A stretch of 64,000 nucleotides of DNA from Glutinoglossum americanum (Eukaryota > Ascomycota > Geoglossomycetes > Geoglossales > Geoglossaceae). A program made the position numbers and the translations under genes. The notes beneath the pieces are model-generated. The model was not told the DNA's origin, did no database searches, and was given only the letters and a program-made list of their open reading frames with translations. The stretch covers positions 1 to 64,000 of the forward strand of contig JAGHQL010000144.1 of the NCBI GenBank assembly GCA_020080175.1, in the 5' to 3' direction. Positions 1 through 64,000 of the stretch are shown piece by piece (within the stretch, counting starts at the first letter, position 1; the number at the start of each line of letters is the position of its first letter).

Positions 1-318
1 CGTCAACAACCTTGGGTCGGTATTGTCGAGCCAGGGCAAGTACGAAGAGGCTGAAACAATGCACCAGCGGGCGCTGGAAGGGTATGAGAAGGTGCTTGGG
101 CCTGAGCACCCAGACACGCTCACCAGCGTCAACAACCTTGGGTTGGTATTGTCGAGCCAGGGCAAGTACGAAGAGGCTGAAGCAATGCACCAGCGGGCGC
201 TGGAAGGGTGTGAGAAGGTGCTTGGGCCTGAGCACCCAGACACGCTCACCAGCGTCAGCAACCTTGGGTCGGTATTGTCGAGCCAGGGCAAGTACGAAGA
301 GGCAGAGAAGATGAATCG
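1..318 (+). repeat. 126-bp tandem repeat encoding TPR units
   Basis: Units begin near 27, 153 and 279 (cgagccagggcaagtacgaa). The copies are almost identical in DNA as well as protein, including silent positions, which points to recent duplication or gene conversion. Confidence 0.9.
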
Positions 319-331
319 ACGAGCACTATAA
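2..331 (+). CDS. C-terminal end of a TPR (kinesin-light-chain type) repeat protein, partial at left edge
   Basis: The frame is open from base 2 to a TAA at 329-331, so this is the 3' end of a gene that begins outside the window. It encodes about 2.5 copies of a 42-residue tetratricopeptide repeat with the signature SSQGKYEEAE...RALEGYEKVLGPEHPDTL. Consecutive 126-bp units differ at only a few bases. Repeats of this kind usually form the C-terminal sensor part of fungal NB-ARC or NACHT receptors, where they act in protein-protein recognition in the cytosol. The last repeat is cut short after KMNRRAL, the natural end. The N-terminal domains cannot be seen, so the NLR assignment is an inference; a free TPR protein is the alternative. 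Confidence 0.88.
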   Translation, partial: VNNLGSVLSSQGKYEEAETMHQRALEGYEKVLGPEHPDTLTSVNNLGLVLSSQGKYEEAEAMHQRALEGCEKVLGPEHPDTLTSVSNLGSVLSSQGKYEEAEKMNRRAL

Positions 332-1347: not shown

Positions 1348-1502
1348 CTTAATCTCGTTTCTAGCATGGCAATAAGTTCAAGATTCTGTCGTATACCATT
1401 CGAGTGTAAGGATCATACACATGATGGACCGTGTACACGAAGAGATGGTATGTGCGCAAGCAAGTATTGTACATATGATAATATTGTTTTGTGCGTAAAT
1501 TA

Positions 1503-1860
1503 AAATTCCCTGAAGGCTCCTATAAGTGCTGGGGAGCGTTTACCCCCAGGGAGAGAATCCCACAGGGGAAAAATTCCCTAAGGGCTCCTATAAGTGCCAG
1601 GAAGCGTTTACCCCCAGGGAAAGAATACCACAGGGGAAAAATTCCCTAAGGGCTCCTATAAGTGCCAGGAAGTGTCTGCCCATAGGGGGAAAATCCCCTG
1701 AGGGCTCCTATAAACGCCGGGAAGTCACCTATCCCAGGGGAGAATCCCACAAGGGAAATTTCCTTGAGGTTCCCTATAGGCGCCGAGAAGCGTCTGCCCC
1801 CCGGGGAAGAATTCCGTAAGGGAAAATTTCCCTGGGGGCTCCTATAAACGCCAGGTCAAA
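1503..1860. repeat. 68-bp minisatellite, about 5-6 copies
   Basis: Units start at aaattccct near 1503, 1571, 1639, 1691, 1756 and 1824. The spacing is 68, 68, 52, 65 and 68 bp. Each carries ggctcctataa, a gaag core, and a ccc..ggg plus ggggaaa flank. The first three copies are closest to each other and later ones diverge. Frames across it are open only because the unit lacks stops; no protein is proposed. Confidence 0.9.
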
Positions 1861-32976: not shown

Positions 32977-35900
32977 ATGGCCGCTCGAAGAGATGTATCA
33001 ACGCCCTTCGTAGAAGATGATTGGGGAATGAAGGTGCTCTATGAGCCTAAGGAGGAAGTCCAGACAGAGCATGAGATCATCGAGCAAGTTAACCAATGCT
33101 CTCCGTCACCAGTGATGTCCTTTGCTAATACCAACTCTTTTGATAGTATCATTGCGGTTCACGGGCTGATGGGCCATCGCATAAAATCATGGACTCATCC
33201 CATGTCAGGCAAGATGTGGTTGCGAGACTTCCTCCCTTCTACAATACCTTTTGCGCGGATTATGACCTACGGCTACGATGCCGACCCGCGATCGCCTAAT
33301 ACTTTGGCCACGCGCAAACGCTGCTGCAAGCCGTCAACGCTGAAAGAGGGGCCGAGGTTTGTTTCTCACCTTGCTAGCGGTGGGAACTTGAGCTGACTTT
33401 GGTAGATTGGCAAGCGTCGATTAATATTCATTGGTCACAGTCTTGGGGGGCTGATAATTAAGAAGGCAATCTTACCCCTGTTGCAAGGCCCCTCCCTCTG
33501 GACCGCAATTGCTGACGACTTGGAAGGCACTTCTTCTGTCTAGAGAAAACGACGACAGGGTGTTCAAGCTGACGTATGGGATTGTCTTCATGGGAGTGCC
33601 GCATCGGGGTGCTTCCCTCGCAGACTTCGCCATAAGCCTGATGAAATTTGCTGCGCCTATATCATTGGGCTCAACGGTTCTCCTTGGAGACCTGCAAATG
33701 GACTCGGCTACTCTTTCTCAAATGGCATATTCCTTCTCCTTATACAACATCGTTACTATTACATATCTGCAAAAGAGTCTAACAAGACGAAGGCCGGCTT
33801 CTTCCGCCGTCACTTGGTATACTCTAGAAATTTAGGTTAAGGTGATAGTTCTGACTTCATGACATAGATTGTCGCGCCAGAATCTGCTGTTCTGAATGCC
33901 GGTCAACGAGAGCAACAGTTCTCTATTCCTGGTGCGGACCATCGGCAGGTCTGCAAATTTGGCTCGCTGAATGGAGGGACGTACAGGATTATCTCTTCGA
34001 GCTTGCGTTCGATGGCAGAAGGGGCTGCGAAGCCGGTGCGTGGCAAGATTGCCTTTGCTCAAGTCCATCTTAGTCACATTCTGCACGATTTATCCCTGAC
34101 ATGTCAAAGCTAGATTCCCAAACCTGACCTTTGTAAATACTTCATGGTTCCGGATAACCTTTCGGCACACTTTGTTGGTCGGGATGACGAGCATAAAATG
34201 ATTCGAGACACATTGCAAAGCCCGCAAAGCAGTTTTAGGCGCGTACCTCTTTACGGCATGACCGGAGTTGGAAAAACCCAACTGGCGTACGCTTACGCAA
34301 CTGAGAATAAGCGCAACTACATGGCAGTGTTCTTCATTACCTCTTCTACCACTGCGGACATTGGCCTACGCTACTCAGAAATTTATAATACTTTACAGCT
34401 TCCTCGTCGCGTCGCCAACGATCAGAAAGGGCAGATCAACGAAGTCAAACAATGGCTTGATCGCAACCCAAACTGGCTTCTTATATTTGACGATGTTCAG
34501 GAAGAGTGGTATAACGCATTTACGGAGTTCCTCCCGCCAAGAAAGGGCCACATCCTCATCACTACCCGTAGCGAGCGAGCAGCGAAGACATTTGCTGAAG
34601 GATCTAGAAACCTCTGCCTACATGTCAAGGAACTGAACTTGGAGCCTGCTGTTGATCTTTTGCTTTTGGCTGGTTCACAGCGAACAGATGACGAGGACCT
34701 CCGTGCCGTCGCCCGCGAGGTTGCCAAAGAACTGGGCAATCTACCGGTAGTGCTGGAATTTACCGGCAGAGGCTATCGATCTAAGACTCAACTCCAAGAG
34801 GTTCTGGCTGACCTAAGAGATGCTGACATGAAACGTCGCTTCATCCTCGATCACAAGGACCATATTGTGGGGTATACGGCTGCCGGCATATCGAACGTCA
34901 GCATCCACCAGGTGCTCCAATGGACGGTAGAGAGACTTGAGCCTGAGACTGCAAAGCGAATCTGGTACGTCACTGCCTTCCTGAACCCAGCGTGGATTGC
35001 ACGGTTATTTTTCGCGGAGCTTCCTGACGAGAGCGAAGAGTCACTACGAATGCTTGCCTCCAACCCGCAGAAGACGAGAAATGGCTTAACCCAAATGTGG
35101 GATCTTGGTCTGACGAGCCTTGCAGAAGGGTCCGATGACTACTGGATTCATGACTTGATTCACGCGGCCAATAGAGCCTCTCTTGACCATGAGCAAACTG
35201 CTCAGTACTCCACATTTGCTACCCGCTGGATCCTTGCTGGTTTCCCCGATTACGGCAAATTTGGGAAGTGGGACCATGGAAGGAACTATTTGAAGCATGC
35301 TTTGTCCTGCCGATCGTGGATGTCCACGCTCAATCTTTCCAATCGTGCTTTGGGCAATCTATTTTCCAAAGCTAGTGATTTTGCAAGATTTACTGGGGCA
35401 TTTGAACTGGCAGAGGATCTAGGTCGAGATGCCCTTAAAGTATCGGAGAGTCATACTGAACACGAGGGTGATCACGACGTATTCAAAGCTAGGGACAGCC
35501 TAGCATCAGCATTACGGCGTCAGTCAAAGTTTCAAGAGTCTGAAACTTTATTTCAAATCAATCTCGATGCTCAAGAGCGAATACTTGGAGAGCTGCATCC
35601 AATCACTCTCGGCACAATTAATGAGCTCGGGTGGATGCTCTATCTTAAGGGGAATTGTGAAGAAGCTGAAAAGCTCCTCCGCCGTGCGAAAGCTGGACGT
35701 GAGGAAGTCCTCACGCCCTCCGCCGGGCCGACACAGCACACTTACCAAAACCTTGCAGCTTGCCTTACGAAGCTTGGCGGCGCTGAACGACTGAAAGAGG
35801 CGGAAGAGCTCTACACACTGGCTCTTGAAGGACACCTGAAAATCTTTGGTCCGAAGCAATTTTGGGTTCTTCACATAAAAAGCAACCTGGCCAATCTTGA

Positions 35901-36177
35901 AGCTCAAGGCAAATATGCTGAAACAATTGCGATGTATCAGGAAGTGTTGGAAGGGCGAAAGGTCGTTTTAGGACGTACGCATCATGATACGCTAATGACT
36001 GCGTCACTATTTCTCAAGCTATTGATAAGGCAAAAACAACTGGAGCGAGCGGAGAGAATGGCGCAGGAAATGTATGAATTTTGTAAAGAGGATTTTGGCT
36101 CTGATTGTGAAGAGACTTTTCAATTTGTGGATCTTTTGGTAGAGATTAGATCTACTATTGCTGCAAATGACTCCTGA
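32977..36177 (+). pseudogene. NLR: alpha/beta-hydrolase (SesB-like)-NB-ARC-TPR, frame broken in the hydrolase part
   Basis: Exons by eye: 32977-33367, 33415-33465, 33527-33816, 33868-34035 and 34114-36177. The N-terminus is a lipase-like hydrolase (IIAVHGLMGH, nucleophile elbow IGHSLGGLIIKK, GIVFMGVPHRG). Next is NB-ARC: P-loop GMTGVGKTQLAYAYA, Walker B WLLIFDDVQ, HILITTRS and GNLPVVLEF. At least five TPR-like repeats follow (QSKFQESETLF, GNCEEAEKLLRRA, GKYAETIAMYQ). Intron 2 needs a GC-AG pair. Frames do not meet near 33,307 (NTLAT to AQTLLQAVNAERGAE) or near 33,770 (NIVTITY to KESNKTKAGFFRR). The gene is either dead, or the read has two indels. Exon 5 alone is a 688-codon frame, so a truncated NB-ARC-TPR protein is possible. 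Such receptors trigger non-self or cell-death responses. Confidence 0.82.
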
Positions 36178-62149: not shown

Positions 62150-64000
62150 CTAATCTAGGTCCATAGAATCGCCGCCATCCTCTATGGAAAGCCTGGCCTC
62201 TCTGTCGAGTAAGAGGCTTACCACTGCCTTTTGACATCTAAAGGAAGCCAAGCGAAGTGCTGTCTCTCCCCAGTCAGTCTCTACGGAAATGTCGGCCCCC
62301 ATATCAAGTAGTAGGCCCATTACCCCCTCATGTCCGTTCCAGGCGGCTTGGTGGAGTGCTGCCCATCCCTCGTTGTCCTTTGCATCAATCTGAGCCCCCT
62401 TGTCTAGTAGAAGGCGTGCCACAGCCTCATGTCCGTTCCGGGCAGCTTGGTGGAGTGCTGCCCATCCTCTGCTGGCCTTTGCATCAACCTGAGCCCCCTT
62501 ATCCAGCAGAAGGAGTGTCACAGCCTCGTGTCCGTTCCAGGCTGCTCGGTAGAGTGCTGTACATCCCTCGTTGTCCTTTGCATCAGCTTGAGCCCCCTTG
62601 TCTAGCAGAAGGCGTACCACGGCCTCATGTCCGCTCCAGGCAGCTAGGTGAAGTGCTTCCCATCCCTCGTTATCCTTTGCATCAACCTGAGCCCCCTTGT
62701 CCAGTAGAATGAGTGTCACAGCCTCGTGTCCGTCCCAGGCGGCTCGGTGGAGTGCTGTACATCCCTTGTTGTCCTTTGCATCAATCCGAGCCCCCTTGTC
62801 CAGCAGAAGGCGTGCCATGGCCTCACGTCCGTTCCAGGCAGCTAGGTAGAGTGCTGCCCATCCCTTGTTGTCCTTTGCATCAATCCGAGCCCCCTTGTCC
62901 AGCAGAAGGAGTGTCACAGCCTCATGTCCGTTCCAGGCAGCGCGGTGGAGTGCTGTACATCCTTCGTTGTCCTTTGCATCAATCTGAGCTCCGTTGTCCA
63001 GCAGGAGGCGTGTCACAGCCTCATGTCCGTTCCAGGCAGCTAGGCAGAGCGCTGCCTGTCCGCTGTTACCCTTTACATCAACCTGAGTCCCCTTATCCAG
63101 CAGAAGACATGCCACGGACTCACATCCGTTCAAGGCAGCTAGATGGAGTGCTTCCCATCCCTCGTTGTCCTTTGCATCAACCTGGGCCCCCTTGTCTAGC
63201 AGAAGGCGTACCACGGCCTCATGTCCGTTTAAGGCGGCTTGGTGGAGTGCTGCCCATCCGTGGCTGTACTTTGCATCAGCCTGAGCCCTCTTGCCTAGTA
63301 GAAGGAGTGTCACAGCCTCATGTCCGTTCAAGGCGGCTTGGCGGAGTGCTGTATATCCCTCGTTGTCCGTTGCATCAACCTGAGCCCCCTTGTCTAGCAG
63401 AAGGAATGTCACAGCCTCGTGTCCGTTCAAGGCGGCTTGGTGGAGTGCTGTACATCCCTCGTTGTCCTTTGCATCAATCTGAGCCCCCTTGCCCAGCAGA
63501 AGGCATACCACGGCCTCATGTCCGTTCCGGGCAGCTTGATGGAGTGCTGTACATCCCTCGTTGTCCTTTGCATCAACCTGAGCCGCTTTGTCTAGCAGAA
63601 GGCGTACTACAGCCTCATGTCCGTTCAAGGCGGCTTGGTGAAGTGCTCCCCATCCCTCGTTGTCCTTTACATCAACCTGAGCCCCCTTGTCCAGCAGAAG
63701 GAGTGTCACAGTCTCGTGTCCGTTCCAGGCAGCTTTGTGGAGTACTGCCCATCCCTCGTTGTCTTTTGTATCAACCTGAGCCCCCTTGTCTAGCAGAAGA
63801 CGCACCACGGCCTCATGTCCGTTCAAGGCGGCTTGATGGAGTGCTGCCCATCCGCGGCTGTCCTTTGCATCAATCTGAGCCCCCTTGCCCAGCAGAAGGA
63901 GTGTCACAGCCTCATGTCCGTTCCGGGCAGCTAGGTGGAGTGCTGCCCATCCGCAGCTGGCCGTTGCATCAACCTGAGCCCCCTTGTCTAGCAGAATACG
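62150..64000 (-). CDS. Ankyrin-repeat protein with at least 18 homogenised repeats, partial at right edge
   Basis: The minus-strand frame is open from 64000 to the stop at 62150-62152: 616 residues, with the 5' part outside the window. There are 18 repeats of exactly 33 residues (99 bp) with consensus HEAV..LLLDKGAQ.DAKDNEGW.ALH.AA.NG. A diverged C-cap follows (LLLDMGADISVETDWGETAL, then VVSLLLDREARLSIEDGG) and ends in SMDLD. Variable positions recur at the same places in each unit: the two residues before LLL, the W/C/Y then A/T/E before ALH, and the residue after it. Ankyrin stacks bind proteins; such arrays usually form the sensor end of fungal NACHT or NB receptors. That the missing N-terminus is such a domain is inference. 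No frame break was seen. Confidence 0.93.
   Translation of the reverse strand, partial: RILLDKGAQVDATASCGWAALHLAARNGHEAVTLLLLGKGAQIDAKDSRGWAALHQAALNGHEAVVRLLLDKGAQVDTKDNEGWAVLHKAAWNGHETVTLLLLDKGAQVDVKDNEGWGALHQAALNGHEAVVRLLLDKAAQVDAKDNEGCTALHQAARNGHEAVVCLLLGKGAQIDAKDNEGCTALHQAALNGHEAVTFLLLDKGAQVDATDNEGYTALRQAALNGHEAVTLLLLGKRAQADAKYSHGWAALHQAALNGHEAVVRLLLDKGAQVDAKDNEGWEALHLAALNGCESVACLLLDKGTQVDVKGNSGQAALCLAAWNGHEAVTRLLLDNGAQIDAKDNEGCTALHRAAWNGHEAVTLLLLDKGARIDAKDNKGWAALYLAAWNGREAMARLLLDKGARIDAKDNKGCTALHRAAWDGHEAVTLILLDKGAQVDAKDNEGWEALHLAAWSGHEAVVRLLLDKGAQADAKDNEGCTALYRAAWNGHEAVTLLLLDKGAQVDAKASRGWAALHQAARNGHEAVARLLLDKGAQIDAKDNEGWAALHQAAWNGHEGVMGLLLDMGADISVETDWGETALRLASFRCQKAVVSLLLDREARLSIEDGGDSMDLD
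62270..64000 (-). repeat. 99-bp tandem repeat encoding ankyrin units
   Basis: Seventeen or more copies are strongly alike in DNA (cctcatgtccgttc, then gcttggtggagtgctg and catccctcgttgtcctttgc, then gagcccccttgtc.agcagaag on the plus strand). Copies nearest the stop are diverged. Confidence 0.93.

Follow-up and report, generated by a model that had tools for sequence, protein, structure and literature searches.

A 33-unit ankyrin array in a probable fungal NOD-like receptor gene of Glutinoglossum americanum, with local alternation at an outer-helix position

The ankyrin array and its gene

The window, that is, the whole stretch of 64,000 nucleotides analysed, corresponds to positions 1-64000 of contig JAGHQL010000144.1 (C51) in an assembly of 25.77 Mb and 317 contigs. 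An ankyrin array is situated on the minus strand at the end of the window, within a 1364-codon open frame (C51 62150-66244) that crosses the window edge. The array consists of 33 ankyrin-like units of exactly 33 residues without any indel (C51 62180-65446), numbered 8-40 along the array; units 13-39 constitute a core of 27 units, and units 8-12 and 40 are diverged. Tandem Repeats Finder describes a 99-bp unit in 26.9 copies with 82% matches and 0% indels, and Pfam matches the ankyrin exon to Ank_2 (E = 1.3e-226, above the cut-off) and, in 30 stretches, to Ank. A preliminary description of the window had counted 18 units of exactly 33 residues, which agrees with the 18 complete units (23-40) lying uninterrupted inside the window, and the residue pairs that it listed before the LLL motif (positions 20 and 21 of the unit) are exact for units 23-38. 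The features are as follows.

62279..64000, minus strand: in-window share of the 27-unit core, from unit 22 (cut by the window edge) to unit 39, from tandem-repeat and Pfam matches
Outside the window to C51 64951, minus strand: continuation of the core in the same open frame
62180..62278, minus strand: unit 40, the final, diverged repeat
62150..62179, minus strand: short C-terminal tail and stop codon
62378..63961, minus strand: units 23-38, the stretch of the preliminary description, in which position 21 alternates L or C with R (one F)

Upstream of the array on the same strand, an exon matches NPHP3_N (E = 9.5e-37, 127.1 bits) and NACHT (E = 2.8e-7, 31.0 bits), both above the cut-off, and a GPIID_WHD winged-helix match, also above the cut-off (2.1e-7), lies towards the beginning of the ankyrin exon. 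Farther upstream, three open pieces resemble an alpha/beta hydrolase. One of these pieces is matched by DUF676 at 19.2 bits, under the cut-off of 20.3, the Pfam search of the other two gave no match, and a PDB sequence search with one hydrolase-like piece gave none either. A motif AHSLGG in a hydrolase-like piece, noticed by eye, is presumably the nucleophile elbow. The exon joins were taken from the reading frames alone, placing putative introns at about C51 66245-66284 and farther upstream.

The gene would combine a NACHT domain with a C-terminal repeat array of 33 ankyrin units, two elements of a fungal NOD-like receptor, and its N-terminal effector would be a putative sesB-like lipase/esterase. 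In the same genome, the NACHT exon has 97 matches, itself and partial matches included, and Ank_2 has at least 220, with 150 of 973 candidates scored. Because the domain order and the many NACHT-exon matches fit the published architecture, the host gene is probably a fungal NOD-like receptor with the array as its C-terminal part.

At window positions 2-331 (plus strand), a 126-bp (42-residue) tetratricopeptide repeat in 2.4 copies with 97% matches is cut by the contig start; it probably marks where a second, more uniform repeat sensor ends. A gene for a protein with NB-ARC and TPR, likewise receptor-like, lies on this contig at window positions 34144-36177 (plus strand). Two partial NACHT-exon matches at G000:C260:126192-128037 (minus strand) have identities of 56% and 51%, the highest among the other copies listed; the first holds internal stop codons, an ankyrin match (70% DNA identity) is close by, and the locus looks like a decayed relative, as far as these matches indicate. 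Further tandem repeats are found at window positions 1502-1855, where units of about 52-68 bp and 186 bp overlap, and at C51 71418-71722 (L009 9619-9923), close to the contig end, where a 41-bp unit occurs in 7.6 copies.

Divergence of the units

The preliminary description had taken the units to be nearly identical in DNA except at fixed positions, which does not hold: pairwise DNA identity among the 27 core units averages 82.0% (range 66.7-92.9%), and at least three units dissent from the commonest base at 42 of the 99 nucleotide sites. Mean protein identity in the same 27 units is 70%, so that the core taken as a whole falls outside the published class of high internal conservation, which is defined by repeats more than 85% identical over at least 100 residues (PMC4986451). 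The longest exact internal repeat at any offset is 51 bp, and at whole-unit offsets within the array no exact match reaches 55 bp; recent duplication inside the array is unsupported.

The units still resemble one another more closely than they do the remaining DNA matches from this genome. Outside contig C51, these matches are 62-71% identical and at most 549 bp long, in a search that skips very common words, so that the absence of a match is no proof. Recent exchange with other loci is unsupported at such identities.

The same exact-repeat length bears on whether the number or order of the repeats could be an artefact of assembly. Short reads do not confidently recover such repeat arrays (PMC12222747), but the frame is open through all 1364 codons and, since no exact repeat exceeds 51 bp, longer reads or k-mers should separate the units; an artefact is highly improbable.

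Other ankyrin arrays of the genome served as controls. Among the loci studied, 19 frames hold at least four ankyrin motifs, and 12 of them (this array included) were lag-profiled; eight of the 12 had chains of at least eight units, while L013, L017, L025 and L029 gave none. The control chains were set by motif. Their final units are visibly out of register in L020 and L022, and in L011 the final unit contains masked residues; for the block search, L011 and L022 were used without their final units. In L027 (contig C268), units 7-15 contain a four-unit block (family-wise p = 0.006) with a 178-bp exact repeat at 396 bp, a duplication that is, judging by its sequence, recent. In L011, a one-unit block is significant (family-wise p = 0.0025), with a 135-bp exact repeat at a one-unit offset. 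No block is significant in L016 and L022, the other two of the four controls (out of seven) that were searched. The block method therefore finds such structure where it is recent, and the present array, with its 51 bp against 178 bp and 135 bp, is not freshly homogenised.

Two-unit periodicity across whole units

A hidden period of two repeats, with a duplicated unit often 198 bp long, had been proposed for the array. The corresponding history, in which the duplication unit was mostly two repeats (198 bp) and left a dimer period running through the array, is a doubtful possibility. Two-repeat duplication is known in ankyrins (PMC1553488). Of lags 1-12, lag 2 gives the highest DNA identity across the 27 core units (p = 0.013 taken alone; protein p = 0.008), and even lags exceed odd lags in these 27 units (p = 0.020; protein 0.035) as well as in units 22-39 (p = 0.041; protein 0.008). 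Third codon positions favour lag 2 with p = 0.025 in units 23-38 and 0.08-0.09 in units 22-39 and 13-39, and local look-alikes are spaced two apart (15/17/19 and 33/35/37). Because the even-minus-odd lags and the third codon positions point this way, a weak dimer trace is possible.

The direct comparison of adjacent with alternate units is less favourable to such a history. Over the 27 core units, whole-unit DNA identity is 82.2% at lag 1 and 83.4% at lag 2 (difference p = 0.083), so that neighbouring units resemble each other almost as much as alternate units do, close to the outcome that the preliminary description had named as counting against the period; in units 23-38 the values are 82.4% and 84.0% (p = 0.10). 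The difference has p = 0.08-0.12 over the 27-, 18- and 16-unit sets in DNA and protein, and is not significant in units 13-22 (p = 0.31-0.41) or with codons 20-21 masked (p = 0.07-0.16). For 5 of the 27 units the nearest neighbour lies two units off, where 1.9 would be expected (p = 0.07), and for 4 of the 27 it lies 18 units off. In the block search of the array no offset is significant; the best offset-two block reaches a family-wise p of 0.56, and the top-scoring block matches units 13-20 with units 31-38 at offset 18 (family-wise p = 0.13), a resemblance that is suggestive only. A whole-unit period of 198 bp is thus weak in all four approaches (lag profiles, codon masking, nearest-neighbour distances and the search for blocks): the lag-2 excess that would support a 198-bp duplication unit exists, but it is small and is accompanied by no significant block at any offset.

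A two-unit register common to the arrays of this genome finds no support among those profiled, since lag 2 is best in none of the seven other arrays. In DNA, lag 1 scores highest in four of them, L011 (where lag 2 is significant too, p = 0.001), L016, L020 and L028; lag 4 does so in L027, lag 3 in L022 (DNA p = 0.085; in protein, 0.016) and lag 6 in L012 (p = 0.068).

Alternation at position 21

What does stand of the two-repeat period is its expression at position 21 in units 22-38, where L or C occupies all eight odd units and R eight of the nine even units, the ninth having F; the period is weak in whole-unit DNA, and units 13-21 show no alternation at this position. Lag-2 minus lag-1 agreement at position 21 gives p = 0.0014 in units 22-39 and 0.0020 in units 23-38, values that each survive correction for the 17 or 13 positions in a stretch picked after inspection; for the full set of 27 units p is 0.017. 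Taken jointly, positions 20-21 give p = 0.025-0.037. In addition, hydrophobic/polar class switches at position 21 over the 27 units have p = 0.023.

The two residues of the pair are associated. Position 20 is threonine in eight of the nine units with L at 21 and in three of the 12 with R (Fisher p = 0.0075); nine of the latter 12 have V, A or I at position 20. Nine other arrays of the same genome supply 133 motif-picked units for comparison: 94% of them have a hydrophobic residue at position 20, which behaves core-like there, versus 56% here, and 3% have one at position 21, versus 48% here. L occurs at position 21 in only one of the 133 units, and T-L is absent from the 20 commonest 20-21 pairs of the nine arrays. 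In the T-L units, eight of the 27, the hydrophobic residue in effect shifts from position 20 to 21. This switch between T-L and V-R is a small oddity, and it is the sole unusual feature of the array.

Selection could hold such an outer-helix alternation (T-L, then V/A-R), for example through packing or a second interaction face, irrespective of the duplication history. The concentration of the signal at position 21, the T20-L21 association and the rarity of leucine, and of hydrophobic residues in general, at position 21 elsewhere fit this account. It is nevertheless unlikely: the stretch was chosen post hoc, R/non-R switches over all 27 units, which are best at position 21 among 16 positions (p = 0.005), come to about 0.08 after correction, units 13-21 do not alternate, and position 20 by itself shows no alternation (p = 0.35-0.61). 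A more specific form, a two-repeat structural module in which T-L and V/A-R alternate by selection and form a second patterned face besides the concave binding face, has a still smaller chance of being correct.

Variable positions on the ankyrin fold

Ranked by entropy, the most variable positions of the unit are 3, 21, 20, 6, 10, 5, 13, 9, 30, 2 and 14, in descending order. Published ligand-contact positions of ankyrins are 2, 3, 5, 13, 14 and 33, and the most variable positions among 15,497 repeats are 2, 3, 5, 13, 14, 17, 32 and 33 (PMC1261162). Five of the six contact positions (2, 3, 5, 13 and 14) vary here, and position 33 hardly does. In a plain count that takes no account of recombination, nine of 33 codons (3, 5, 6, 9, 10, 13, 20, 21 and 30) have a pN above the mean pS (0.239), and at the contact positions 2 and 14 pN lies below this mean. 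The overall dN/dS across units is 0.63.

A predicted model of units 31-38 (mean pLDDT 97.6) contains helices at positions 7-13/14 and 17-25. In a structure search with this model, AnkB (4rlv) is matched with a TMq of 0.97 and an rmsd of 1.3, and the top matches by E-value are DARPin fusions. Positions 20-21 are located on the second helix of the model, outside the published contact positions, with exposure judged from helix position, contact positions and residue types. The variable sites had been proposed to form a diversifying recognition surface. Variation at five of the six contact positions and a NACHT gene around the array make such a surface plausible, but the alternating pair 20-21 lies off the contact set.

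Proposed function and growth of the array

The domain order, the predicted fold, the position-wise variability and the closeness of the units within the array are best explained by a fungal NOD-like receptor made up of alpha/beta-hydrolase-like, NACHT, winged-helix and ankyrin parts, in that order, with the array as its C-terminal sensor, a reading to which we assign a probability of about 0.8. The accompanying mechanism extends to transcription, ligand binding, signalling and the mode of duplication. The NACHT exon and the ankyrin exon would be joined in one transcript, and the solenoid, by analogy with known receptors, would bind a ligand along its concave face. Binding would then free the NACHT switch for oligomerisation, and the oligomerised NACHT domain would render the N-terminal hydrolase-like effector active, the outcome probably being non-self recognition or cell death.

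As to its growth, tandem duplication of blocks of differing size may have enlarged the array within the locus before the units diverged. The alternation at position 21 would be a local trace of this duplication history, possibly aided by selection, on the outer helix and not on the binding face. The high rank of positions 21 and 20, second and third in variability, is not predicted by an account that rests on the concave face.

The locus adds to the catalogue of fungal NOD-like receptors a probable long ankyrin sensor without recent internal copies. Furthermore, the mixed register sizes among the arrays of one genome (one, four and, weakly, two units) bear on how such sensors grow, and the polarity switch at positions 20-21 hints, in a way that can be tested, that variation in ankyrin receptors may extend beyond their usual binding face.

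Comparison with known systems

Receptors of the sesB-like/NACHT/ANK type with internally conserved ANK repeats and repeat-number polymorphism have been published, with variable ANK sites on the concave face and one exception (PMC4986451). Like the fungal NOD-like receptors of Dyrka et al. 2014 in that report, the present gene has a NACHT domain, a 33-residue ankyrin array, many NACHT matches per genome and variability at fixed positions, the concave face included. Its units, in contrast, are 70% alike in protein, below the 85% threshold, it carries extra variability at positions 20-21, and its 33 units compare with the 7 to more than 16 given for Podospora and the 21 for Chaetomium globosum, figures that refer to the most highly conserved ANK motifs.

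The Podospora HNWD receptors (het-d, het-e and het-r) likewise place a repeat sensor behind NACHT, with fixed hypervariable sites and proposed concerted evolution. However, HNWD proteins combine WD40 repeats with a HET domain, and the present gene has ankyrin repeats and a putative hydrolase-like piece.

In the ankyrin and zinc-finger proteins of Bjorklund et al. 2006, ankyrin repeats have been duplicated two, three or four at a time, with blocks of four the more dominant (PMC1553488). Mixed block sizes are shared with the present genome, where the two-unit signal of this array is weak whereas the four-unit block of L027 is clear. In the accessible portions of the literature on ankyrins, fungal receptors and repeat duplication, no description of an alternation at outer-helix ankyrin positions was found, a weak basis for calling the 20-21 alternation a new detail. 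The array and its gene are otherwise an ordinary new member of a well-described gene type.
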